Positions 7,698-21,320 of a DNA stretch of 64,000 nt are shown in pieces. The notes below the pieces were generated by a model that was not told where the DNA came from, made no database searches, and was given only the letters and a program-made list of their open reading frames with translations. Position 1 is the first letter of the stretch; the number at the start of each line of letters is the position of its first letter. The stretch spans positions 1 through 64,000 of the forward strand of contig VGVH01000010.1 of NCBI GenBank assembly GCA_016874095.1, written 5' to 3'. The stretch is from Gammaproteobacteria bacterium. Its GTDB lineage: Bacteria > Pseudomonadota > Gammaproteobacteria > Steroidobacterales > GCA-2729495. A program made the translations under genes and the position numbers.

Positions 7698-8117
7698 ATG
7701 ACGGCGGCCGTCGAATCGCGACTGGGTCCTTTCCCGCTGGCTGCAGGAGTCACGGCGCGACTCATCGGCATCCGCTGCGGTTTCGCGCTGGCCGCCGCCG
7801 GGTACGCATCGATGGGTCTGGTCGACGATCCGCTGGGCGGCGGCATGATCGCGGCGGCGGTCTTCGCGGGCCTCGGCGAAGCGAGTGCGGTCGTCTGTGC
7901 CGGAGTCTTCATCGGCCAGGAGGCGCCACGCGAGGGCCGCGGCGTGATCTTCGGCACCTACGGGCTGTCCGGTTCGCTCGGCATGATCTGCCTCACCTCG
8001 CTTGGCGGCCTGTTGTACGACCGCATCGGGCCCACCGCGCCGTTCCTGATGATGGGCGCAGTGAACGCTCTGGTGGTGGCTGCACTTCTCAGCGTGAAGC
8101 CGCGAGCGCCGCGCTGA
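7698..8117 (+). pseudogene. C-terminal remnant of an MFS transporter
   Basis: ARLIGIRCGFALAAAGYASMGL...GVIFGTYGLSGSLGMICLTSLGGLLYDRIGPTAPFLMMGAVNALV resembles the last TM helices of an MFS protein; no N-terminal half upstream. Overlaps the convergent 8089-9381 gene. Confidence 0.6.
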
Positions 8118-9381
8118 AGTGCCGCCGGCCCCAACCGAGCAGCAAAGCCGCGGCGAGCGCGGCTGCGCCGGTCACCAGCGCGAGCGAACGGCCGACGGCG
8201 AGTTCGTTGCCGAAGATGTAGTCGGTTGCGAGCGCCGTCGCCAGCGGACCGATTCCCATGCCGATGATGTTGAGGAAGAACAGATAGAGCGCTGACGCCA
8301 CGGCACGATTCGCGGCCGGCGCCAGCACCTGCAACGCAGCCGGCGCCGCGCCGTAGGCGAAGGTGCTGAAGAAGAGCAGCGGCGCGTACAGCGCCAGCAT
8401 CACATCCAGCGTATCGACCACCGGCGCAAACACGCCAAATGCGAGGCAGCCTGCCGCGCTGATCACGCCGACCCGCAGTGGCGCGTCGGACCGCCCCGCC
8501 GCCTGCCAGCGGTCCGCCAGCCAGCCGCCTGTCAGGATGCCGGCGGTGCAAAAAACGACGATGAGGCTGCCGAGGCGCAGGCCCGCTTCCGCAGGTCCCA
8601 GTCCGAAACTGCGCGCGAGATGCGCCGGCGTCCAGGCAAGCAGTGAATTGAGCACCATGCCGAGCAGCGCGAAGCCGATGAGATGGGCGGCATATGCCTG
8701 CCAGTGACGGCGGATGTGGGGCCACAGCGCCGCGATGCTTCCGCCCGAACCCGCAGCCGGACTCCGTCGCAGCGGCTCGGTCAGGGTAAGCAGCCACAGT
8801 GCGACCACGAGTCCCGGCAATCCCACGACGAGGAAGACCAGCTGCCAGGGTCGCAGCGCGCCGACGAGCGGCAACTCGGTGACACCGGCCTGCGCCACTT
8901 CGGCGATCACCGCAGCCCCGATGATGAGCGCGAGACCCATGCCGGCGAAGGCGCCAAGCGTGTAGACGCTCAGCGCACGGTTCAGCCGTTCCGGCGGGAA
9001 GCTGTCGGCAATCATCGAGTAGGCCGCGGGCGACAGCGCCGCCTCGCCCACGCCCACGCCGATGCGCGCCGCGAGCAGCTCCCAGAAATTGCGCGCCAGC
9101 CCGCAGATGGCCGTGGCCAGACTCCAGAACGCGACGCCGATCGCGATGATGTTGCGGCGGTTGCGCCGGTCGGCCAGCGTCGCGATCGGGATTCCCAGCA
9201 GCGTGTAGAACACCGCGAAGGCCAGGCCGTGCAAGAGGCTCACCTGCGTGTCGGTAACGCCGAGATCGGCCTTTATGGGACCGACCAGCAGCGTGAGGAT
9301 GCTGCGGTCGATGAAGGACAGCACGTAGGCGACCGTCAACACGGCGACGAGGTACCAGCGGGCAGGCGCTCCTGATGTCAT
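8089..9381 (-). CDS. MFS transporter
   Basis: AYVLSFIDRSILTLLVGPIKADLGVTDTQVSLLHGLAFAVFYTLLGIPIATLADRRNRRNI; multi-TM; starts 9 bp after the VWA gene stop. Confidence 0.9.
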   Translation of the reverse strand: MTSGAPARWYLVAVLTVAYVLSFIDRSILTLLVGPIKADLGVTDTQVSLLHGLAFAVFYTLLGIPIATLADRRNRRNIIAIGVAFWSLATAICGLARNFWELLAARIGVGVGEAALSPAAYSMIADSFPPERLNRALSVYTLGAFAGMGLALIIGAAVIAEVAQAGVTELPLVGALRPWQLVFLVVGLPGLVVALWLLTLTEPLRRSPAAGSGGSIAALWPHIRRHWQAYAAHLIGFALLGMVLNSLLAWTPAHLARSFGLGPAEAGLRLGSLIVVFCTAGILTGGWLADRWQAAGRSDAPLRVGVISAAGCLAFGVFAPVVDTLDVMLALYAPLLFFSTFAYGAAPAALQVLAPAANRAVASALYLFFLNIIGMGIGPLATALATDYIFGNELAVGRSLALVTGAAALAAALLLGWGRRHFSAALAASR

Positions 9382-9390
9382 GACCTGCCG

Positions 9391-10383
9391 TCAGCGCAGC
9401 GTCGACAACGCGACGAAAGTGCCGCCGTTGCGCTCGCACAGCGTGCGCATCAGGTTGGAGAACCGCAGCGCATTCGACATCCGGCCGCCGGCAACCTGGG
9501 TCGGGAAACCGACGGCATGGATGCGCACGAGCCTGTTGCCTGAGGCGTCCGCGGTGTTGATCTTCTCTACATAGCGCGCCACCGACTCGATGTTGCCCCT
9601 CGGGAAGTCGTCGCCGAAGACGAAGATGCTGATCCGCTTGCCGGGTTCGTAAAAAGTACTGATTGCTTCCGCGATTCCCTCGACTGGGCTCGAATCGCTG
9701 TAGGCCTCCCAATTGGCCAGTGCACCGAGGATCTCGCGGCGGGTCGTCGCGGAATCCGGCATCCAGCGCCCGGCATAGCTCTGGAACAGGTACCTGCCCT
9801 CGTCGTTCAGCACCTGGATGCCTTTGATCCTCGGGTACACCTTGAGTGTCTCGGACACCTTGCGCAGGACGAGATCCCAGGGTCCGTTGAACATGCTGCC
9901 CGAGGTGTCGATCACGAAAATGATGTACTCGCTGTCCACGGGGATGCCGCCGATGGGCTGGTTCTTCTCCGGCGGTTTGTAACCGGCGAGCAGCCGGCGC
10001 ATTTCCTCCGTCAGCTTCTGGCGGGCCGCCAGCAGTTCGCCGGCGGTATCGGCATCGACGGCATTCTTCTCGCTGGCGGCAAACTGGCCGCGGATGCGGG
10101 AAAGATCGGCCTGCAGCTGGGCAAGCAGTTGCGCGTCCTTCGCTATCGTTGCCTCGACTGTTTCCATCTCGCGGTTGAGCACGGCCGATTCGCCAAGGAT
10201 ATCGAAAAGCTCCGCCTGCAGCGCTGCGATCAGTTCGCGGCGGTCCTCCCGGGCGCGCTCGATGATGCGCGGCTCCGAGGCCTTGTTGAGCACCAGCAGC
10301 ATGATGACCGCCCCGAAGCCGCAGCAGATGGCATCGAGGAACGACAGGCTGAAGACCTCCGTGTCGCGGCGCTGGCGCCTCAC
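9391..10383 (-). CDS. Membrane-anchored VWA domain protein (MIDAS DTSGS) with ExbD/TolR-like N-terminal TM segment
   Basis: GTG start VRRQRRDTEVFSLSFLDAICCGFGAVIMLLVLNKA; FVIDTSGSMFNGPWDLVLRKV. Track ORF 9391-10872 extends upstream out of real coding sequence; the GTGA overlap defines the start. Confidence 0.85.
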   Translation of the reverse strand: MRRQRRDTEVFSLSFLDAICCGFGAVIMLLVLNKASEPRIIERAREDRRELIAALQAELFDILGESAVLNREMETVEATIAKDAQLLAQLQADLSRIRGQFAASEKNAVDADTAGELLAARQKLTEEMRRLLAGYKPPEKNQPIGGIPVDSEYIIFVIDTSGSMFNGPWDLVLRKVSETLKVYPRIKGIQVLNDEGRYLFQSYAGRWMPDSATTRREILGALANWEAYSDSSPVEGIAEAISTFYEPGKRISIFVFGDDFPRGNIESVARYVEKINTADASGNRLVRIHAVGFPTQVAGGRMSNALRFSNLMRTLCERNGGTFVALSTLR

Positions 10384-11471
10384 GGCCAGTCCTCCGCAAT
10401 GGTGAGCATCGCGCCGCCGCTCGTGTATGCCATCTGCCAGAAATAACCTGCTGCCTCCGGGTCGCCATCCATCGGCAGCAGCAGGATGTTCATCGGCAGC
10501 TTGCGGGGCAGGCTGCGGATGGCATCGACCATGTATTTCACGCGCTTCTGCGCCTGCACTTCCTCGACTTCCGGCGGCGGCTGGTCGCCCTGGGTCGGCA
10601 GGCCATCGGTGATCAGGAAGACGTTGTCCGGCTGCGGCTCGAGTTCGCTGATCTCGGCGAACGCGTTGATGAGGCTGGTGCCCTTGCCGGGCACGAACTG
10701 CCGGAGCCGCGCCAGTGTGCGGTCGACCTTGTCCTTCTCCCGCAGGCTGGTCCAGCCGCTGCCCTCGCCGAAGAAGCGCACCGGCTTCTCGTTGAAGACG
10801 ACCACCTGCACCTGCTGCGCGGGCTGCATCTGCGTGAGCAGCCACTCGACCGAACGCACCGCCTGGCGCCACTTCGGCGCCTTGCGCTTCTCGGCGTCAG
10901 GCATGCTGCGGAAGCGGACCACGTTGACGAAATTGCGCCCGAGCATGCTGCCCGAACCGTCGACGAGTATGAGCACGTGGCTGCCGCCCATGCGGATGCC
11001 GGTCAGGTACTGGCGATTCCCCTCGCCGGCGAAGGCGCGGATGCGCTGGCCGGTGGTCGGTTCCGGCGGCGCGTTGCGGAAGGCGAGCCGCTTGTTGCTC
11101 TCCTCGAGCTGGCGGATGTCGGCGCGCAGCTGCTCGATGCTCTCCTTCTGCGCGAGGCTGTCGCCCTCCTTCAGGTCTGCCGTGAGCTGCGCGATCAGCT
11201 CCTGCATGCGGGCGATCTCAGCCGCCGCCAGCGCGCGCCGATCCTGCTCTTCCTTGAGCGAGTTGCGCAGGCGGACGAGATTCTTGCGGCCTTCCAGCAC
11301 TTCCTCGTCGATGCGGCTGGTCTCGCTCATCACCTCGGCGCTCGCCATCTTCGCGCGGGCGGCGACCTGCGCGTTGATGATGACGAAGAGCAGCACCACG
11401 GCACCGAACCCGCAGGAGATGCAGTCGAGGAACGACAGGCTGAAGACCTCGGTCTGGCGCCTACGGGGCAT
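10380..11471 (-). CDS. Membrane-anchored VWA domain protein (MIDAS DGSGS), paralog of the neighbour
   Basis: MPRRRQTEVFSLSFLDCISCGFGAVVLLFVIINAQ; coiled-coil region; ILVDGSGSMLG; FLITDGLPTQGD. Confidence 0.9.
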   Translation of the reverse strand: MPRRRQTEVFSLSFLDCISCGFGAVVLLFVIINAQVAARAKMASAEVMSETSRIDEEVLEGRKNLVRLRNSLKEEQDRRALAAAEIARMQELIAQLTADLKEGDSLAQKESIEQLRADIRQLEESNKRLAFRNAPPEPTTGQRIRAFAGEGNRQYLTGIRMGGSHVLILVDGSGSMLGRNFVNVVRFRSMPDAEKRKAPKWRQAVRSVEWLLTQMQPAQQVQVVVFNEKPVRFFGEGSGWTSLREKDKVDRTLARLRQFVPGKGTSLINAFAEISELEPQPDNVFLITDGLPTQGDQPPPEVEEVQAQKRVKYMVDAIRSLPRKLPMNILLLPMDGDPEAAGYFWQMAYTSGGAMLTIAEDWP

Positions 11472-12807
11472 GGGCAGCCTCCGCGACCAGGACCAGCTCC
11501 TGCGGCGGCTGGCCGATCGCGATCACATCGCCGGCCTGCAGAACCGCCAGCGACTCCACGCGATGCCCGTTGAGCGCCGTGCCGTAGCGGCTCTGGTCGT
11601 GCAGCACCATGCGCCCGTCCTCGAGGCGTATCGTGCAGTGGCGCCGCGACACGCCCTGGCCCGTGAGCTTGAGTCCGTACTCTCCTTCCGACATCTCGGC
11701 GCCGACCTGCAGCGGCACCGGCCCCAGCCGCCAGGCCCGGCTGCCGTGCACCAGATGGGTCGGCGCGACACCGGCCGCTGCGGCCGGCAGCGCATCCGGC
11801 GAGGCGGCAGGCTGGTCGAACGGCAAGGCAGTGGCAAGCACGTGCGTATCGGCCGGCGCGCCACGCAGGCGCAACGCGCCGCGGGCCGCTGCGCCCGGCT
11901 CCAGCTCGACGACGGCCGAGGCCGGCAGCATCATCAGCGCTTCGATCACGCCCGGCAGCTGCGCCAGGCGGTGATGCACCTGCAGCACGGAAGGCTCGCG
12001 CGGGGAAAGCAGCGTCCGCAGCTGTCGCGTGAGCGGCTCGCAGAGCCGCGCGACCTCCGCGCGCAGCGCAGCGGCCGACAATCTCGCTTCGTAGCGATGC
12101 CCGCCGTGCTCGAGCGCGAGCGCAATCGTCTCCTGCCGCATCGCCGCCGCCAGCCAGCCATCCAGGCGGTCAAAGAGCCTCTGCTCGCTCGACGCCTGGT
12201 GCAGCGGGTCGAATCGCGAGCTGTCGACGAAGGCGCGGGCGATGAACTCGGCGCAGCCGCGCTCAATCGTCTCGACGCCGAAGCGTTCCACGCTGATGCG
12301 CGCCCCCAGCCTCGCCCCGCCCTCCTGGCCGATGCGCGTGATCCACGCCGTCTGCAGTCCGGCAACTACGTCCCAGAGCGCGCGGTCCGGGTATGGCCGC
12401 CGGCTGGCGGCCACCGCGATGTCGACGAGGCCGGCGACCGGCATGCCGATCTCCCCGGCGATACCGAGCAGCAGCCCGAGCTGCGATTCGGACCAGCCGG
12501 GCGGCACGACGAGTATTGCCGCGGTCGCATCGGCGCGCGCCTGCCAGAGCCCGGCAAGCTGGCGCGCTGCGAGATCCGCGCCCGAGGCTGCATCGGCCAG
12601 CGGCACGGCGAGTGTCGATTCGGACAACGCGGCCCAGTACGCCCGCTGCGCCAGCCGCGGGCTTGCGCGCAGCACGCTGCGCGCCGGATCGCCGAACACG
12701 AGCCGCCCGTCGACGAGCGCCGCATAGCCCGGCCCGGCCGCAACGAGATCGCTGCCGCGGCTCATCACCAGGGCGGCATCGCACAGTTCGATGGCGGCGA
12801 GCGACAT
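11461..12807 (-). CDS. Putative actin/Hsp70-fold protein with C-terminal FHA domain
   Basis: N-term MSLAAIELCDAALVMS..., AILVVPPGWSESQLGLLLGIAGEIGMPVAGLVDIAVAA; C-term YGLKLTGQGVSRRHCTIRLEDGRMVLHDQSRYGTALNGHRV...LQAGDVIAIG is a canonical FHA. Confidence 0.75.
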   Translation of the reverse strand: MSLAAIELCDAALVMSRGSDLVAAGPGYAALVDGRLVFGDPARSVLRASPRLAQRAYWAALSESTLAVPLADAASGADLAARQLAGLWQARADATAAILVVPPGWSESQLGLLLGIAGEIGMPVAGLVDIAVAASRRPYPDRALWDVVAGLQTAWITRIGQEGGARLGARISVERFGVETIERGCAEFIARAFVDSSRFDPLHQASSEQRLFDRLDGWLAAAMRQETIALALEHGGHRYEARLSAAALRAEVARLCEPLTRQLRTLLSPREPSVLQVHHRLAQLPGVIEALMMLPASAVVELEPGAAARGALRLRGAPADTHVLATALPFDQPAASPDALPAAAAGVAPTHLVHGSRAWRLGPVPLQVGAEMSEGEYGLKLTGQGVSRRHCTIRLEDGRMVLHDQSRYGTALNGHRVESLAVLQAGDVIAIGQPPQELVLVAEAAHAP

Positions 12808-12830
12808 AGCGGATTCCGCCGGACCCGGCC

Positions 12831-13628
12831 TCAGCTCGCGTGCAGGTGGCGGATCAGCCGGTCGTCGGCGTAGCTCTCCGCGTCGAACACCAGCCGCTCC
12901 TGCATGAGCTGCAGCTGGTGCACGAGGAACATGAGCAGGATGCTGATGAGCAGCGCGATGAGCGTCGAGTTGAACGCCGTGCCGAGGTTTTCCGTCACAC
13001 CGCTCACGTCGCCGTCGACCGCGCGGTGCGCCATGTTGAGCGCCAGCCCGATGCCGCGCACGGTGCCGATGAACCCGATCGCCGGGATCGCCCAGAGGAT
13101 GTAGCGCACCATCGACAGCTCCGAATCCATGCGTTCCGCCTCGGAACTGACCATCTGGTGCGCCGAGGAGGCAACGTCCTGGATGTTGCGCGTCGCACCG
13201 AAGCGCACCAGGACATGGTGCAGGACGCGGGGCAGCAGCAGCGCGCGCTGGGACTCGGGCAACGCCTCGATCTGCCGGGCATAGTCGCGCGTGTCCTCGG
13301 GCAGCACCCGCACGCCATCGGCGATGGGCACGAGCACCTCCTCGAGCAGCTTCCGTTCGGCAATCGCCGCGTTGCCCTTGTAGGCGATGATGGCGAGGCA
13401 CCAGAGCAGGAGCACGAAGCAGGACTCCTGCTCGTAGTCTTTCACGACCACATAGAAAGACGTCTCTGCGACGTAGTCGGGGTCCTTGTCCATCATCGCG
13501 CGTTGTTCGGCGACCACCGCCTCGGCGTTGGGCCAGACGACCGTCACATACACGGTGTGGACCAGGAGCACGGCGATGATCAGCGCGAAGAGCTGGAAGA
13601 CGAACTCGCGGGAAAATGTCCTGTTCAT
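12831..13628 (-). CDS. MotA/TolQ/ExbB-type proton channel family protein
   Basis: YILWAIPAIGFIGTVRGIGLALNMAHRAVDGDVSGVTENLGTAFNSTLIALLISILLMFLVHQLQ. Confidence 0.85.
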   Translation of the reverse strand: MNRTFSREFVFQLFALIIAVLLVHTVYVTVVWPNAEAVVAEQRAMMDKDPDYVAETSFYVVVKDYEQESCFVLLLWCLAIIAYKGNAAIAERKLLEEVLVPIADGVRVLPEDTRDYARQIEALPESQRALLLPRVLHHVLVRFGATRNIQDVASSAHQMVSSEAERMDSELSMVRYILWAIPAIGFIGTVRGIGLALNMAHRAVDGDVSGVTENLGTAFNSTLIALLISILLMFLVHQLQLMQERLVFDAESYADDRLIRHLHAS

Positions 13629-13664
13629 GGCTGCTGCTTCTTTCGCGGCGGCGAATCCGCCGCC

Positions 13665-13922
13665 TCAGATGTCCGATGGCAATGCGATCGCAATGTCGGC
13701 CGGGAGCGGTTTCGTGCTGCGGAACTCGCCCTTGCCGGGATCGGGCGGCTTGCCCTCGAGTTCCTCCTGCACGCGGCGCAACTCTTCCTCCAGTTCGTCG
13801 CGGCTCACTTCCTCGACCTGCGGTGGTGCCTTTGCCTCGCTCTCCGGCGCCGGCGGCGCCTGGGCACCGGCCGTCGGGCCGAGGGCCAGAGCAACGATGG
13901 CGATGACTTTCACTGCCTGCAT
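13665..13922 (-). CDS. Small exported Pro/Glu-rich coiled-coil protein
   Basis: MQAVKVIAIVALALGPTAGAQAPPAPESEAKAPPQVEEVSRDELEEELRRVQEELEG; between operon neighbours. Confidence 0.7.
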   Translation of the reverse strand: MQAVKVIAIVALALGPTAGAQAPPAPESEAKAPPQVEEVSRDELEEELRRVQEELEGKPPDPGKGEFRSTKPLPADIAIALPSDI

Positions 13923-13929
13923 GCCGTGC

Positions 13930-16317
13930 CTACTCCACCGAACGGGCCAGCCTGAAACCCACGTCGAGCCGCCCCTGGTCGCCGAAGTCGCGGAACGACT
14001 GGCGCAGCTCGCTCACGCTCGAGTGCCGCCAGCTCGAACCGCGGATCACGTGGTAAGGACCCTGGTCCGGGCCTAGCGGGTCGACGACTTCGTCCGCGGT
14101 CGGCGTGTACACAGTGTAACGGTCGCTGACCCACTCGGCCGCGTTGCCGCCCAGGTCGCGGAACCCGAGCGGGCTCGCGGCGAAACTGCCGACCGGCGCC
14201 GTCACGGGCCAGCCGTCGTTGTAGGTCGCAAGCACGTTCGGGACGATGCCCTGGGCGGCGACATCGGCGAAATTGCCCGATTCGGCGCCAGGCGGCATCT
14301 GCATGCCCCAGGGGTAGCGGCGCATGCCGCCGCCACCGTTCCAGCGGCTCGCCCATTCCCACTCCGCTTCGGTCGGCAGCCGGTAGCCGGTATTGAGCGG
14401 CGAGCTGAGCGTCGGGCGACCGTCCTTCACGACGTACGCCTGCGGCAACCCTTCGCGATCGCTCAGCCAGTTGCAGAAACTCGCGGCCTCGTTCCAGCTG
14501 ACCATCACCACCGGGTGCGAGTCGCCCGCCAGCTCCTGGTACTTCTCGGCGCCGCTGGTGTGCGCTGCCTTGAACTCGCGGAATTCGCGGTTGGTGACCT
14601 CGTTGACGCCTAGATAGAAGGCGCGCGTGATCCTTACCGCGCGCTCCGCCTCGTTCGGTCGCCGGCCCTGTTCGCGCCGCGGCGCGCCCATGGTGAAAGC
14701 GCCCGGGCCGACGAGCCGCAGCGTCGCGCCGAACCGCGTGGTGATCGTTGCCGGCACGGCCGCGAGCACGGCCTCGGCCGGCGTCAGCAGCCGTGCCTCG
14801 ACGAGCTGCGTCTGGCCGGGCCGCGGCGTCACTTCGCGCGACCAGGTCACGTAACCCGGCTTGCGCAGCTCGATCTTCTGCGGCAGCGCCGGCAGCTCGA
14901 GCGACTGGTTGGCGATGCCGCGGGAGACGCCGTTCACCCACAACTCCGCGTCGGCGGGCTCAGCCACTACGCGCACCAGGCCGCGGCGCTCCTCGAGCAC
15001 GACATTGATCGCCTCGCTTCCCCGCCGCGCGATCTCCACGCGGCGCGTCGCGGCCGCGTACCCCGGCTTCGCGACGATCACCGTGTGCGGTACGCTGGAA
15101 CGCAGTTCCACGTCGAGCGGCGTGTCGCCCTGGTAGCGCTGGTCGATCGTCACGGCTGCGCCGGCCGGCGTCGAACGCACGCTGAGCATCGCATCCGCTT
15201 CGACCAGCTCGACGGGCGGCAGCGTCAGCTTCTGTCCCGCGACCACGGTGACGGCGCGGGTCCACGGTTTGTATCCGTCCAACCGCAGCTCGAGCTTCGC
15301 GGTACCGGCAGCCACCGGCACCGAGGCGGGTGTCGCGCCGGCATCCAGGCCGGCCACGCGGATCCGGGCGCCGGGCGGCGTGCTCTCGATGGTCACGTCG
15401 GCCCAGTTCGGGACCAGTCCGAGCACGACGGTCTGTTGCTCGCCGCGCCCGATGACTTCGACGGTGGCGTCATGGGGCAGATACAGGGGAGCGTCGACCT
15501 CGAGCCGCCGCGCGCCCGCGGCGGCAGCGTACGTGCCATCCGCACCGGGCTGCACGTCGGCGCCGTCGATGCGCACGACGAGCGACTGCGCCGGCGTCTG
15601 CAGGACAAGGCGTCCCGGCAGCCGCTGCAGCGAGTAACGCCACTCCTGGCGAGGCGCATCGCCGACCTCGATTTCTGCCGTGATCGGCTCGTGGCCCGGC
15701 GCCGAGAGATCGACGCGATAGCTGCCCGGCTGGAGTAGGAAGCGACCGCCGATCGAGAGCGTTGGCAGAGTGCCGTCGACACTCACGACGGCATCGAGGG
15801 GCTCCGTGCGGATCCCGACCGAGCGCGCGGTGAAGAGCCAGGCGGCTACGAGAGCGAACCCGGCCAGCGCCAGCCAGACGAGCCTGGCGGTGCGCCGGGG
15901 CGACGGCGTTGCCGCCGGCGCGGACCGTCGCGCGCCGATCCGCGGCGCGTCGCCGCCCTGTTCGACTGGCGGCAGTGTCTCGTAGCCGCTGTCGTCGTAC
16001 TCGAGTTCGAGACGAAGAGTCCCGCCCGCGAAGTTGCAGCGGACGCGCAGCGTGCCGGCGGTCAGCACGTCACCGTCTGCAAGCCAGCGCGGCGCAGCCA
16101 GCAGCTCGCCATTGACGGCGACCGGCAGTCCGCCAAGGCCTGTGGCCTGCAGCAGGAGCCGCTCGTCCAGCAGGCTGATGAGGGCGGCGATTTCCGCCGA
16201 CACGGGCCCGGGGACGCGCAGGTCCGCCGCCGGACCCGTGCCGATGCGCAGCGGCAGCGCTTCGGGCTCGACGTTGCGCGTCCCGCCCGGACCTGCAATG
16301 GCAATCGAGCGGCTCAG
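13930..16317 (-). CDS. FHA-like N-terminus, TM helix, PEGA repeats and C-terminal FGE/SUMF1-fold domain; conservative GTG start at 16203, proposed CTG start at 16317
   Basis: VNGELLAAPRWLADGDVLTAGTLRVR (FHA-like); VWLALAGFALVAAWLF TM; repeated PEGA-type segments (TPPGARIRVAGLDAG, STPAGAAVTIDQRYQGDTPL, AEPADAELWVNGV); FGE-like GAFTMGAPRREQG...YRLPTEAEWEWASR...GGNAAEWVSDRY...GFRLAR. Confidence 0.8.
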   Translation of the reverse strand: MSRSIAIAGPGGTRNVEPEALPLRIGTGPAADLRVPGPVSAEIAALISLLDERLLLQATGLGGLPVAVNGELLAAPRWLADGDVLTAGTLRVRCNFAGGTLRLELEYDDSGYETLPPVEQGGDAPRIGARRSAPAATPSPRRTARLVWLALAGFALVAAWLFTARSVGIRTEPLDAVVSVDGTLPTLSIGGRFLLQPGSYRVDLSAPGHEPITAEIEVGDAPRQEWRYSLQRLPGRLVLQTPAQSLVVRIDGADVQPGADGTYAAAAGARRLEVDAPLYLPHDATVEVIGRGEQQTVVLGLVPNWADVTIESTPPGARIRVAGLDAGATPASVPVAAGTAKLELRLDGYKPWTRAVTVVAGQKLTLPPVELVEADAMLSVRSTPAGAAVTIDQRYQGDTPLDVELRSSVPHTVIVAKPGYAAATRRVEIARRGSEAINVVLEERRGLVRVVAEPADAELWVNGVSRGIANQSLELPALPQKIELRKPGYVTWSREVTPRPGQTQLVEARLLTPAEAVLAAVPATITTRFGATLRLVGPGAFTMGAPRREQGRRPNEAERAVRITRAFYLGVNEVTNREFREFKAAHTSGAEKYQELAGDSHPVVMVSWNEAASFCNWLSDREGLPQAYVVKDGRPTLSSPLNTGYRLPTEAEWEWASRWNGGGGMRRYPWGMQMPPGAESGNFADVAAQGIVPNVLATYNDGWPVTAPVGSFAASPLGFRDLGGNAAEWVSDRYTVYTPTADEVVDPLGPDQGPYHVIRGSSWRHSSVSELRQSFRDFGDQGRLDVGFRLARSVE

Positions 16318-18539
16318 ATGGCCTCCTCGCAGCGCACGACCACGGGTGCCTTGCTGCCCGGGCTCACCCGGAACTGCACGCGCACGTCGCGGAACCCGGC
16401 GCGCGTACCGACCGCGGTGTAGGTTCCGGGCCGCAGATCGAGATCGTGCGTCGCGAATGGCCCGAGCCGACCGATCCTGAACACGGTGACTTCCGTCAGG
16501 CCGTCGGACTCGAGCCGCACCGGCACGGGGGTCGTGCCGAGCACGATGAGCCGGTCGAGATCACCCGTCTGCTGCGCGAGTCGAGGGCCCTGTGGCGTCG
16601 TGGCACGAGCGCGCACGAGGGTGGCTCGGGCGCTGGCGACCAGGCGATCGTCGTTGAACTGGTCCGAGGCGGAAATGAGTCGCGACAGCTCGCGATCGAG
16701 CTCGAGCCGACGTGCGGCGTTGTCACGCGCCTGGCGCGATTCGATCACGCCAGCATCGACAGCGAGCGCCGCGTCCCAGGCGGCGAGCGCCTCGTCCCAC
16801 CGCTCGGCCGATTCGTGTTTGCGGGCGGCAGCTGCCAGTCGCTCGATATTGCCGAGCCCGCGATCGCTCTCGGCCTGCGCGAGCGCAGCGCGCGCCGCTG
16901 CATCGCCCGGGCGGATCGCCAGCGCAGCCTCGAACGCCGCACGCGCAGCAGCGCTGTCGCCGGCCGCCTGCGAGGCAAAGCCAGCCGCCATCCGGCGCTG
17001 GTAGTCGTCTGCAGCTGCGGCGGTCTCCAGCGCCGCCACGGCCGAGCGTGCCGGCTGCCAGCGGGGGTCGAGCGCAAGAACCTCGCGCCACAAGCCCAGG
17101 GCGTCGGCGCGCGCCCCGGCTGCGGCGGCCGCCTCGGCCTGTTGCGCCAGCGCGAGCACGCGATCGAGCCGGCCGGCGCGCGCCAGGCCCTCGCTTGCCG
17201 CTGCGAGACCGGGTGAGATGGCCAGCGCGCGCTCGTAGGCATCTGCAGCCAGCGCCTGGTCGCCGGCGGCGATGGCAGCCTCGCCCTCGCGCAGCGCGCG
17301 GTCGCGTTCGCCGTCGGCGCGGGCGAGCAGTTCGCGAGCCAGAGCGGTGGCCGCGCGATAGCCGCTGAGCGCGGCTGCGCCGTCGCGGGAGCGTATCGCG
17401 GCGTCAGCCTCGACCGCGCGACGACGGATCTCGTCCCAGGCCGGCGCGGCCCAGCGCGCCGGATTGAGCTTCTTCAACTCGTCGTCGAGGCGCAGGAACT
17501 CGCCGAGCGCGAGGTCGATGTCCGCCTGCGACGCGGTCGGCGCTGGCGCGGCTGGCACCGACTCCGGTGCCGCTGGCCGTTCGACCACCAGGGGACTCTG
17601 CGGCGCCGGCGCGAATTGCGGCAGGTAGATGACGACGGCAACAACCGCCAGCGCCGCGATCGCCAGGGCCGCATAGACAAAGGAAGCGGACACGCCGGCC
17701 CTGCGCCCGGCAAGGGCTGCAGGCGGCGCTGTGGCTGCAGAGCGCACCCGGGCGCGGATCACGGCGGCCTGCGCGGTGCCGGCGTCCACGGCGAGCACCT
17801 CGTCGAGTGCAGCCCTGACCGCGGCCATGCCGGGCGGTCGCGCCGCCGCAGACTTCGCCAGCATCGCGCCGATCAGCGCGCGCAATGCCGCGGGCAGCGG
17901 CGTACCGGCCAGATCGGTTTCCGGCACCGCGGGCACAGCGGTGCGAATTCGCTCCGGCGTGACATCGGGATGAAACGGCGGGACGCCCGCGAGCAGGTCC
18001 ACGAGCAGCGCGCCCAGCGCATAGACGTCATCGCTGGCGGTCGCCGCAGCGCCATCGAGACGTGCCGGCGACATCGCCGGCAGCGAACCGGCACCGGCAC
18101 CGAAGTCCGCGAGGAAGAGTTGCCCGGTCGCGTCGCCGAGGACATTCGACGCCTTGACGTCGCCGTGCACGATGCCCTGGCGGTGCGCGTATGCCAGCGT
18201 GTCCGCGAGTCCTGCGACTGCCCGGAGGACATCGTGGTAATCCGCGCCACGAAGTTGCCCGATGCCGGGCCCGGCACGCAGCGGCAGAACCAGCACCGCT
18301 GGCGGACCAGCCAGACATTCGCTCGACGCCAGGATGCCCGGGTGCACGAGTCGCGCAGTGATGCGATGCGACGCTGCCAGCACGGCGGCCGCCGCCTCGT
18401 CGCGCGCGACCTTCAATACGATCGGATCGCCGCCGGCAACCGGTTCGGCCTGCCAGACCTCGGCAGTCGCGCCGGAACCGAGTCGGGCAACCAGCCGCCA
18501 GCGCCCAGCCAGGATCACGCCCGCTGCCAAACCGGCCAT
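16314..18539 (-). CDS. Hanks-type Ser/Thr protein kinase with TM helix and TPR-like periplasmic region
   Basis: LVARLGSGATAEVWQAE, IVLKVARDEA, QGIVHGDVKASNVLGD, LFLADFGAG, ASDDVYALGALLVDLLAG; TM FVYAALAIAALAVVAVVIYLP; repeated Ala-rich TPR-like units. Confidence 0.9.
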   Translation of the reverse strand: MAGLAAGVILAGRWRLVARLGSGATAEVWQAEPVAGGDPIVLKVARDEAAAAVLAASHRITARLVHPGILASSECLAGPPAVLVLPLRAGPGIGQLRGADYHDVLRAVAGLADTLAYAHRQGIVHGDVKASNVLGDATGQLFLADFGAGAGSLPAMSPARLDGAAATASDDVYALGALLVDLLAGVPPFHPDVTPERIRTAVPAVPETDLAGTPLPAALRALIGAMLAKSAAARPPGMAAVRAALDEVLAVDAGTAQAAVIRARVRSAATAPPAALAGRRAGVSASFVYAALAIAALAVVAVVIYLPQFAPAPQSPLVVERPAAPESVPAAPAPTASQADIDLALGEFLRLDDELKKLNPARWAAPAWDEIRRRAVEADAAIRSRDGAAALSGYRAATALARELLARADGERDRALREGEAAIAAGDQALAADAYERALAISPGLAAASEGLARAGRLDRVLALAQQAEAAAAAGARADALGLWREVLALDPRWQPARSAVAALETAAAADDYQRRMAAGFASQAAGDSAAARAAFEAALAIRPGDAAARAALAQAESDRGLGNIERLAAAARKHESAERWDEALAAWDAALAVDAGVIESRQARDNAARRLELDRELSRLISASDQFNDDRLVASARATLVRARATTPQGPRLAQQTGDLDRLIVLGTTPVPVRLESDGLTEVTVFRIGRLGPFATHDLDLRPGTYTAVGTRAGFRDVRVQFRVSPGSKAPVVVRCEEAI

Positions 18540-18551
18540 TGATCCCGGCTT

Positions 18552-19772
18552 TCAGCCCGCGGGAGCGGGCGTTGCTGGCGCTGATACGGCCGCCGGCAGC
18601 CCGGTCTCCCGCTCATAGACCTCGCGCAGGAGGCGGCGCCATTCGCGGAACTTCTCCTCGGCCGTCCCCGATAGCCGCTTCGTCTGGCCCTCGATCTCGA
18701 CCAGCAGCGGTTCGGCTTCCGCTTCCAGCGACTTGCCCTGCTCCTTGATGCCCTCGCGCGCCAGCGTGGCTTCCCGCTGCTTCGCGAGACCGGCCTTGAT
18801 GCCTTCGATGCCGCCGATGACGCCTGTCGTGGTGATCGCGGAATTGGAGCTGGAGGAATTGCCCTCGTAGAGGATCGCGCCGAGCAAGGCTGCGCCACCG
18901 AGCAGGTAGCGCAGCATGGCCGAGCGCTTCAGGTCCTCGTACTTGAGCGTCTCGGTGCGCGAGACCTTGCGCCAGTCCTCGTAGGGCTTGCCGATGTCGA
19001 AATAGAGCGCGGCGTAGTACTCGTTGAGCGTGTCGACCAGCGCGTACTCGCGCTCCCGCACGGCGCGCAACCGGGACAGCATCGGGTCGTCCTCCGCGGG
19101 CAGGCGCTGCACGCTGTAGATGCCTTTTTCATCGCGCGCGAGAAAGCCGTCGAAGGCCGCAGGCGCGAGATCGTCCGCGAAGCGCAGTTCGGCGATCTCG
19201 CGCAGCCTCGCGAGGTCTCGCTCGCCCAGCTTCTGGCGCAGGGCGAGCAGGTCGTTCGCGATCTCGTTGTAGACGTTCTGGTAGGGATCGAGGCCGGGAT
19301 CGCGGTAGCGCGAATAGGCCTTTTCCGCCACGCGCGTGCGATAGGCCTTGTTGAGCCACTCTTTGCCGGTCGCGTCCCAGGCGCCGACGCGCAGCGCGAC
19401 CTCCAGCCCGTCGGAGTGGTCGATGCGGGCCCATACCAGCAGATCGACCGATGCGCTGCGATCGGGGAGCACCCACACCGAGCCCCAGTGCCCGCTGCTC
19501 TCGAGCGTGCCGCGCAGGTGGTAGGGCATATAACGGGACTCGGCGCGACGCACGTCCGGGAACACCAGGCTGTCGGGGTCGGGTTCGCCCTCGGGCAGTC
19601 CCGGGTCGAACAACATGATGCCGACGTCGAGCAGCTCGCCCGGCGGGACTTCGGCACTGGCGCGTTCGAGATCGACTTTCTCGTACTGGATCTTGCGCGA
19701 GCTGCTGCAGCCGGCGCTCAGGACTGCGGCAAGAGCCAGGCACGCCGCAGCGATGCGAAGGGCGCGCGTCAT
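18552..19772 (-). CDS. Predicted lipoprotein of unknown function
   Basis: MTRALRIAAACLALAAVLSAGCSSSRKIQYEKVDLERA lipobox; ATGA overlap with upstream gene. Confidence 0.8.
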   Translation of the reverse strand: MTRALRIAAACLALAAVLSAGCSSSRKIQYEKVDLERASAEVPPGELLDVGIMLFDPGLPEGEPDPDSLVFPDVRRAESRYMPYHLRGTLESSGHWGSVWVLPDRSASVDLLVWARIDHSDGLEVALRVGAWDATGKEWLNKAYRTRVAEKAYSRYRDPGLDPYQNVYNEIANDLLALRQKLGERDLARLREIAELRFADDLAPAAFDGFLARDEKGIYSVQRLPAEDDPMLSRLRAVREREYALVDTLNEYYAALYFDIGKPYEDWRKVSRTETLKYEDLKRSAMLRYLLGGAALLGAILYEGNSSSSNSAITTTGVIGGIEGIKAGLAKQREATLAREGIKEQGKSLEAEAEPLLVEIEGQTKRLSGTAEEKFREWRRLLREVYERETGLPAAVSAPATPAPAG

Positions 19773-20563
19773 TCCTTGATCCCGGTGCGTTTGCGGTATT
19801 GCTCCCACAGGGCTTCGCGCACGACCGGGTCCGTCTCGGCCATGGCCGCCTCGCGCAGCTGACGGGCAACTTCGTCGTCGGCGCTGCCGTCGGCCGGAAT
19901 GTCCTCCGGCAGTTCGACTGGCGCACCGGGCCGCTCGTCGTCCTTGCCGGACTTGCTGCCCTTCGAGGTGTTCTTGACTTCGCCCTGCCCGGGTCCTGCC
20001 TCGCCACCGGCACCGGCCTCGCCCTCGGGCGGCGTGTCGGGGCCGGCGCCGCCCGGTCCTTCCTGCCGGCCGCTCGTCGCACCACCGCCGCTGCGGGTTG
20101 CGCCGGGGTTCCTCGTATCGTTGGCGTCGCGTGACTCGCGTCCGGTCGACTCCTGGGTCGAGCCGCGGCCACTCTGGGCCATGACGTCGCGCTCGCGCTT
20201 CATGCTGCCGTCGAAGTCCTTGAGCGACTTGTCGAGGTCGCCGTCGGGGTCGTCGCTGCCGGACCCGCCGGACTCCCCGCCCGCGGCCCCGCCCGTGTCC
20301 GGCAGCTCGCCGCTACCGCCCGGCGCCGGCATGCCGCCGCCCGTAGTCGAGCCACCGGACGGGCTGCCGCCGGACGGCGTACCGCCGGGCAGTCCACCCC
20401 CGCCTGCACTGCCGCCGCCTCCGCCCGGCAGCGGCACGGGCACGCTGATGGCCGGGCCGCCACCCGATCCGACCACGGAACTGGACGCGCTGCAGGCCGT
20501 CAGCATGAGCGCCAGCACCGTTAAAGGAATAAGCCGGGTTATACCGCTCGCCGAGGAAGTCAT
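19769..20563 (-). CDS. Predicted lipoprotein with long Gly/Ser/Pro-rich low-complexity region
   Basis: MTSSASGITRLIPLTVLALMLTACSASSSVVGSGGG lipobox; track ORF starting at 20764 is over-extended. Confidence 0.75.
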   Translation of the reverse strand: MTSSASGITRLIPLTVLALMLTACSASSSVVGSGGGPAISVPVPLPGGGGGSAGGGGLPGGTPSGGSPSGGSTTGGGMPAPGGSGELPDTGGAAGGESGGSGSDDPDGDLDKSLKDFDGSMKRERDVMAQSGRGSTQESTGRESRDANDTRNPGATRSGGGATSGRQEGPGGAGPDTPPEGEAGAGGEAGPGQGEVKNTSKGSKSGKDDERPGAPVELPEDIPADGSADDEVARQLREAAMAETDPVVREALWEQYRKRTGIKE

Positions 20564-20666
20564 CGCTGCTCCCGCACAGTCGTCACCGGACGACGTCGAA
20601 GTATATCGCTGGGGTTTGGTCAGCCGCTGGCAGGTAATGGTTCCTGCCGCGAGGGCCCGATGACGG

Positions 20667-21320
20667 TCAGCGACTGCCCGGCAGCTCCCGCAACAGGCGC
20701 TCCGCAGCGCGGCTGGCCACGGTGACCAGCGGCGCCGGGTTCTCGGTCGCAGAGTCATAGGCATAGTTCAGCTCGCCGCCGCCCTCCCAGGCAACCGCGC
20801 CGGTGTGCGAGTCCCAGACCTGCAGGAACACGCGGAGATTGGCCTGCTTGGTGTCCATGAGGCGCAGCCCGAAGAAGCTCAGCCTGCTCCGCGACAGCTG
20901 CTGGAAATCTGCAAGGCTCAACTGGACCAGATAGCGAACACCCCCGACTTCGCCCACACGCTTCAGCACCGAACCCTCGAGGATGCCGGTCTCGAGGTAG
21001 TCGCGGTACATGCTCTTGTAGTCCTGATCGAGGTCGGCCGCGTTGACGTCGCTCAGGATGCTCGGCAGCGGGACGATCTTGACGCCGGGCCTGGCGTCGC
21101 CCAGCGCACGGGCGAAAGCCTGCGCCAGCGCCTGCTTGTCGGCCTCGCGCCCGGTTGCCGCCGCGGGCGTGAGGAACCCGACGCCACCGGTTTCGAGATC
21201 GGTCGCGCCCAGGGACAGGTTGCTCGACTGCACCTCGTGGCGCGTTTGCTGGCCGATGCCGCAGGCGCCCAAGGCCGCGGTCGCCACGAGCAGACAGAGC
21301 AGACGCCAGGTGCGGGGCAT
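20667..21320 (-). CDS. Predicted lipoprotein of unknown function
   Basis: MPRTWRLLCLLVATAALGACGIGQQTRHEVQ lipobox; co-directional with the cluster. Confidence 0.8.
   Translation of the reverse strand: MPRTWRLLCLLVATAALGACGIGQQTRHEVQSSNLSLGATDLETGGVGFLTPAAATGREADKQALAQAFARALGDARPGVKIVPLPSILSDVNAADLDQDYKSMYRDYLETGILEGSVLKRVGEVGGVRYLVQLSLADFQQLSRSRLSFFGLRLMDTKQANLRVFLQVWDSHTGAVAWEGGGELNYAYDSATENPAPLVTVASRAAERLLRELPGSR

Follow-up and report, generated by a model that had tools for sequence, protein, structure and literature searches.

Gene content and organization of the locus

The window analyzed here, a stretch of 64,000 nucleotides (contig VGVH01000010.1 of assembly GCA_016874095.1, positions 1 to 64,000) from a gammaproteobacterium of the order Steroidobacterales, carries a run of genes encoding a Hanks-type Ser/Thr kinase, an ExbB/TolQ/MotA-type channel subunit (the ExbB-like protein), two proteins with von Willebrand factor A domains (VWA1 and VWA2), an FHA protein, a PEGA/FGE protein, a small exported protein and three lipoproteins (Lip1, Lip2 and Lip3). 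The order of transcription is Lip1, Lip2, Lip3, kinase, PEGA/FGE, small exported protein, ExbB-like, FHA protein, VWA1, VWA2 and a major facilitator superfamily (MFS) gene, as shown in Table 1. Eight to nine of these genes were confirmed to form a real conserved locus, Lip2–Lip3–kinase–PEGA/FGE–small exported protein–ExbB–FHA–VWA1–VWA2, with Lip1 being a local extra.

The preliminary description of this DNA had reported co-directional, packed genes with overlapping ends, and the open reading frame (ORF) coordinates confirmed this, with all genes on the minus strand. The VWA1 stop and VWA2 start share GTGA (10380-10383), the Lip2 stop and Lip3 start share ATGA (19769-19772), and the end of the FHA gene overlaps the start of VWA1 by 11 nt (11461-11471). 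The G+C content at third codon positions was of the coding type in most ORFs (0.85-0.92) and reached 0.80 in the kinase and Lip2. The kinase, PEGA, FGE, MotA_ExbB, FHA and VWA domain calls were all recovered by Pfam profile search of each protein; VWA2 matched Pfam weakly, yet its full-length alignment with VWA1 (hhalign E 4e-30) clearly marks the two as paralogues. All three lipoproteins carry a signal peptide and a lipobox, read by eye, but only Lip2 and Lip3 belong to the core. The MFS gene, which had been considered a possible member, was rejected as it showed no conserved linkage to the set.

Table 1. Features of the locus in the window, in order of transcription, with supporting matches and occurrence in related loci.
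Feature	Coordinates	Strand	Evidence and occurrence
Lip1, extra lipoprotein	20667..21320	-	Signal peptide and lipobox read by eye; six related loci only
Lip2 lipoprotein	19769..20563	-	Lipobox LTAC; homologues precede Lip3 in 77/80 loci
Lip3 lipoprotein	18552..19772	-	Signal peptide and Cys22; 75/80 loci
Hanks-type Ser/Thr kinase	16314..18539	-	PF00069 5.6e-15; 79/80 loci
PEGA/FGE protein	13930..16203	-	Pfam PEGA x4 7.9e-45, FGE-sulfatase 1.7e-43; 79/80 loci
Small exported protein	13665..13922	-	93 homologues compared; 75/80 loci
ExbB/TolQ/MotA-type channel subunit	12831..13628	-	PF01618 (MotA_ExbB) 2.1e-12; 77/80 loci
Hsp70-fold + FHA protein	11461..12807	-	Pfam FHA 1.8e-12; 70/80 loci
VWA1	10380..11471	-	Pfam VWA_2 6.4e-9; complete MIDAS
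VWA2	9391..10383	-	Weak Pfam VWA (0.012); VWA1 paralogue; 77/80 loci
MFS gene	8089..9381	-	Last in transcription order, after VWA2; outside conserved set

Conservation and distribution of the gene set

A total of 134 distinct loci were annotated with family hidden Markov models (HMMs), and the 80 with enough flank served as the denominator of the per-gene counts. The occurrence of each gene besides VWA1 ranged from 79 loci for the kinase and the PEGA/FGE gene down to 70 for the FHA gene (Table 1), and exactly the gene order of the window was observed in 58 of the 80. Seeds of the main HMMs (Lip3, kinase, FGE, ExbB, FHA, VWA1 and VWA2) came from the window and loci L013-L043 only, none from loci L045 and above; the models for Lip2 and the small protein were refined by iteration on the wider set. 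Departures from the common layout included loci missing the FHA gene, such as L025, L210, L219, L225 and L226, and two loci, L208 and L220, with ExbB placed after VWA2.

Searches with VWA1 gave matches in 43 of the 49 good genomes among 59 relatives, where the two VWA genes almost always stood in tandem. Across the order, 159 of 233 good genomes (54 of 62 genera) had a match, and across the class 29 of 364, spread over many families. A scan of GTDB yielded at least 575 confirmed relatives, the best 80 of which are mostly gammaproteobacterial (Woeseiaceae, Halieaceae, Steroidobacter and Chromatiales) and also include metagenome-assembled genomes (MAGs) of Desulfobacterota and Acidobacteriota. 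Steroidobacter and Pseudohalioglobus are examples of cultured carriers. Loci were thus found in Gammaproteobacteria, Desulfobacterota and a few Acidobacteriota, with 30-60% protein identity across phyla. A lack of conservation beyond near relatives had been named as grounds for refutation, but the gene set is syntenic across several phyla. The locus is rare in the phyla Acidobacteriota and Desulfobacterota, with 2 carriers in a sample of 247 and 3 in a sample of 198, respectively, seeds included. The loci of these two phyla cluster with each other in most locus proteins, which speaks against binning errors. Alphaproteobacteria were not counted, because the loci of 'Rhodospirillales' MAGs cluster with members of the order of the window.

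In a reciprocal search of 370 class genomes, Lip3 was detected in 26, VWA1 in 29 and both in 25, where 2 would be expected (hypergeometric P 1e-33, relatedness ignored). Pairwise distances of seven locus proteins correlated at 0.54-0.91, a range obtained without a housekeeping-gene control.

A few genomes carry atypical or partial loci. The sole Lip3 genome without VWA1, L239, is a complete small genome with remnants of Lip2, Lip3 and the kinase (8373-11305) broken by stops, an apparent decay of the locus. L034 and L231 represent a second, diverged copy without the Hsp70-FHA gene in genomes that also have a normal one, the Lip2 C-terminus of L231 lying at the opposite end. L233:3106-5366 is a lone VWA1-VWA2 pair without ExbB or other genes, and its genome has a second copy.

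Features of the encoded proteins

The ExbB-like protein has four hydrophobic segments, and its residues T189 and T222 are invariant in 98 of 98 sequences. VWA1 consists of a basic N-terminus, a single transmembrane (TM) helix with Asp16 (SFLDxxxCGFG), a coiled region and the VWA domain; D16, C20, G23, D171, S173, S175 and D289 were found in 110 of 110 sequences, with T or S at position 265. In VWA2, D17, C21, G24, D159, S161, S163, S231 and D258 were kept in 103 of 103 sequences. The two proteins have a common TM helix consensus, F-S-L-S-F-L-D-x-x-x-C-G-F-G-A, located after a basic stretch, and the metal-ion-dependent adhesion site (MIDAS) residues are complete in both. The position of the helix Asp resembles that in ExbD. 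A Pfam scan of VWA1 and VWA2 gave no ExbD/TolR (PF02472) match, the SHLS motif was absent from both by reading of the sequences, and profile searches of the PDB gave no match for the ExbB-like protein and coiled-coil noise only for VWA2. Four ExbD matches were obtained elsewhere in the genome and none on the contig of the window, so that the predicted motor of the locus is additional to ordinary Ton/Tol-type systems. A canonical ExbD/TolR had been reported as lacking, which is true of the contig; its counterpart, however, seems to be the VWA pair, which probably takes its place. The reading of the ExbB-like protein and the VWA pair as a motor driven by the proton motive force (PMF) is well supported by the invariant residues, the synteny and published modelling.

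The kinase contains a single TM helix (~288-306) followed by a TPR-rich region and a strongly conserved PEGA-like C-terminus, both predicted to be periplasmic, and its catalytic Lys K43, HRD-Asp D127 and DFG-Asp D145 are kept in 91-94% of 53 sequences. The PEGA/FGE protein has an FHA-like cytoplasmic N-terminus, a single TM helix (~108-126), four PEGA domains and a C-terminus of FGE/SUMF1 fold. The best PDB profile matches of its N-terminus were FHA domains at E 0.05-0.5, which is suggestive only; of the several FHA domains expected beforehand, one protein has an FHA domain at Pfam level and this N-terminus is FHA-like at best. The protein was rejected as a formylglycine-generating enzyme because the catalytic Cys pair near the C-terminus is not present: Cys577 alone is conserved, and no Cys lies in the C-terminal active-site stretch. 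A PP2C phosphatase, thought to be lacking, does adjoin the locus in related genomes. In the Woeseiaceae-type loci L035 (2056-4316) and L028 (2071-4340), a second Hanks kinase and a PP2C phosphatase lie directly upstream of Lip2, the second kinase of L035 having a zinc-ribbon tail, and PP2C fragments were also seen at L074, L105 and L121.

The FHA protein is composed of an Hsp70-fold N-terminal domain fused to a C-terminal FHA domain. Its AlphaFold2 (AF2) model (pLDDT 95.2) matched Hsp70 in Foldseek with E ~1e-16 and a target TM-score of up to 0.71, and a profile search matched Hsp70 SSB1 at 2e-4. By reading, the phosphate loops (DLGTT, DLGGGT) are degenerate, the family consensus there being ELNDAGI and HLDxxLH; because these motifs are not kept, the Hsp70-like domain is read as a putative pseudo-ATPase.

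Lip2 has a long Gly/Ser/Pro-rich disordered linker and a conserved C-terminus of ~40 residues (DivArQlREAA..E.DP.lRe.LW.EYR). Lip3 comprises an N-terminal alpha/beta domain, then a ~75-residue helix and a hairpin (AF2 pLDDT 84.8), with Cys22 kept in 70 of 80 aligned sequences. The top Foldseek matches of its N-terminal domain were all TolB (domain 1; best E 7.6e-4, TM-score 0.18), and a profile search of the PDB with Lip3 found nothing. Foldseek matches of the long helix to ExbB, TolQ and BAR domains were dismissed as generic hairpins. The small exported protein is disordered except for its extreme C-terminus, F-x-P-S/T-E-x-I/L-x-A-D-x-x-V/I-x-F-P-x-D-I, a fixed motif of the sort that a docking peptide would be expected to have. 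In about 20 loci, a gene with a Gly-zipper and an OmpA domain directly follows VWA2, as in L035:16207-17007 and L082:12187-12960.

A proposed kinase-linked envelope motor and its alternatives

A TPH-vWA/TolQ-like motor family, with homologues in Idiomarina loihiensis, was predicted recently (PMC12204202; Mol Biol Evol 2025, msaf138). According to that article, a TolQ homologue and a heterologous vWA pair, with a second vWA family and no TolR, are widespread in Proteobacteria; AlphaFold3 models place the vWA Asp within a Thr ring, and no function is assigned there. The present locus shares with that family a tolQ/exbB homologue in close linkage with the vWA pair (77/80 loci), a heterologous vWA pair with one N-terminal TM helix each (77/80), the conserved helix Asp, the conserved Thr pair of the predicted pentamer subunit and a cluster without tolR, exbD or motB and without the SHLS motif. 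The kinase, the Hsp70-FHA, PEGA/FGE and small exported proteins and the lipoproteins are not mentioned in its main text, and no description of the whole kinase/pseudo-Hsp70-FHA/PEGA-FGE/lipoprotein assembly was found in the open-licence PMC papers searched. The preliminary description had called the system undescribed; this holds only for the wider assembly, for which no matching characterised system was found, because the channel and VWA pair motor had already been proposed. The type of motor is not new, its subclass having been predicted in 2025, and any novelty would lie in the fixed assembly around it.

Among characterised systems, Tol-Pal has in common with the locus an ExbB/TolQ subunit, an Asp-bearing single-TM partner and an outer-membrane lipoprotein, to which the weakly TolB-like domain of Lip3 and the OmpA-type gene adjoining some loci may be added. 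However, the locus has a vWA pair instead of TolR and extra kinase and FHA parts, while TolA, the TolB propeller and Pal are not among its core genes. Myxococcus gliding, in which AglR works with two ExbD-like partners and the FHA protein GltG (PMC3169522, PMC9389320), is a working example of such a set of parts: both systems combine one MotA/ExbB-type subunit with two distinct Asp-bearing partners, and both include an FHA protein as well as envelope proteins. The AglRQS-Glt system differs in that AglQ and AglS are Pfam ExbD proteins, GltG has a TonB domain, and PEGA/FGE and Hsp70-like proteins are lacking.

We consider it reasonably likely that the product of the locus is a trans-envelope motor under phospho-control, powered by the PMF and akin to TolQR, ExbBD and AglRQS. 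Five ExbB-like copies would surround the TM helices of a VWA1-VWA2 heterodimer, the Asp residues of which would carry protons, and the periplasmic VWA domains, with their intact MIDAS, might pass the movement to Lip3, Lip2 and the PEGA/FGE protein, bridging to the outer membrane. The membrane kinase, whose TPR/PEGA half would act as a periplasmic sensor, would phosphorylate one of the components. This would be read by cytoplasmic FHA parts, namely the Hsp70-like FHA protein and possibly also the FHA-like PEGA/FGE N-terminus, and the motor would thereby be assembled or gated. The 5:1:1 stoichiometry, proton flow, phospho-gating, what is moved, and the transfer of force to the outer membrane via vWA domains and lipoproteins are what we infer here; phospho-control is suggested by the kinase, the FHA domain and the occasional PP2C. 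The PP2C phosphatase and second kinase upstream and the OmpA-type genes downstream in related loci provide supporting context for this motor-plus-control reading. The idea of a phospho-regulated trans-envelope machine, put forward before this analysis, is accordingly supported as regards a conserved, kinase-linked machine, while its regulation by phosphorylation is kept conditional. Either envelope maintenance or surface movement is possible as its purpose.

Several observations weigh against this motor. Comparison by hhalign of the VWA N-termini with the ExbD profiles of these genomes gave no significant homology, so VWA1 and VWA2 are not claimed as ExbD homologues and it is their position and motif that speak for a role as an axle. 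About one-eighth of the loci lack the Hsp70-FHA gene, and a Tyr replaces the usual loop Asn of its FHA domain, which leaves the reading of phosphorylation unproven. The likeness of Lip3 to TolB is local and weak.

The ExbB/VWA proteins might instead belong to an envelope sensor, in which they and the periplasmic PEGA, TPR and FGE parts monitor the condition of the outer membrane or wall, with the kinase as output and ion flow tuning the signal instead of producing force. The steadiness of the kinase, greater than that of the Hsp70-FHA gene, the predicted periplasmic location of the PEGA and TPR regions in the kinase and the FGE protein, and the PP2C and second kinase adjoining some loci all fit such a sensor; it would need neither the ExbB Thr pair nor an Asp-bearing axle, yet both are invariant, and we regard it as rather unlikely. 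A type IX secretion system (T9SS) likewise couples a PMF motor (GldL/GldM) with an FGE-fold ring protein, and an energised secretion or surface assembly of the GldKLMN type, with the FGE-fold protein as GldK and a motor driving export or movement of surface proteins, would agree with the match of the FGE part to NCBIfam GldK (2.6e-28), which at 99.5 bits is far under the cut-off of 350 bits. However, the FGE fold is widespread and this match is explained by PF03781, no sequence relation was found for the motor parts, the locus has no GldL/M/N-like gene, and its conserved neighbours include neither a translocon gene nor one for an outer-membrane channel, making this explanation improbable.

An anti-phage defence of the Zorya type, which shares a MotA/ExbB-type subunit, was suggested by the weak similarity of the ExbB-like protein to ZorA (4e-4) and by generic kinase matches to PD-T4-6 models in a PADLOC scan. 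As noted beforehand for ZorC, ZorD and ZorE, these proteins are lacking, the scan of the window proteins having yielded only weak Zorya matches, to ZorA, with no ZorB and no nuclease; the lipoproteins are conserved, the locus occurs in most good genomes of the order, where defence genes would be patchy, and plasmid and phage searches found no copies on mobile elements. Defence was rejected after these negative searches and is very improbable. Chance neighbours, or an operon retained in a single lineage, were refuted by the survey, given the synteny at such identities across phyla and the reciprocal co-occurrence, and can practically be dismissed.

Motors of the 5:2 type (MotAB, ExbBD, TolQR and AglRQS) serve in motility, in uptake and in maintaining the outer membrane. 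The fixed gene set supplies likely partners for the predicted vWA motor, which thereby becomes testable. More tentatively, the locus could stand next to Ton and Tol-Pal as another class of energised envelope machine. Its 5:2 proton motor would be turned on and off by a transmembrane Ser/Thr kinase together with an Hsp70-like FHA adaptor, a direct phospho-control of such a motor, and its vWA pair would exert a metal-dependent pull on outer-membrane lipoproteins. If true, a widespread 5:2 motor with its own kinase, pseudo-Hsp70 adaptor and vWA axle would tie phosphorylation to force in the envelope.

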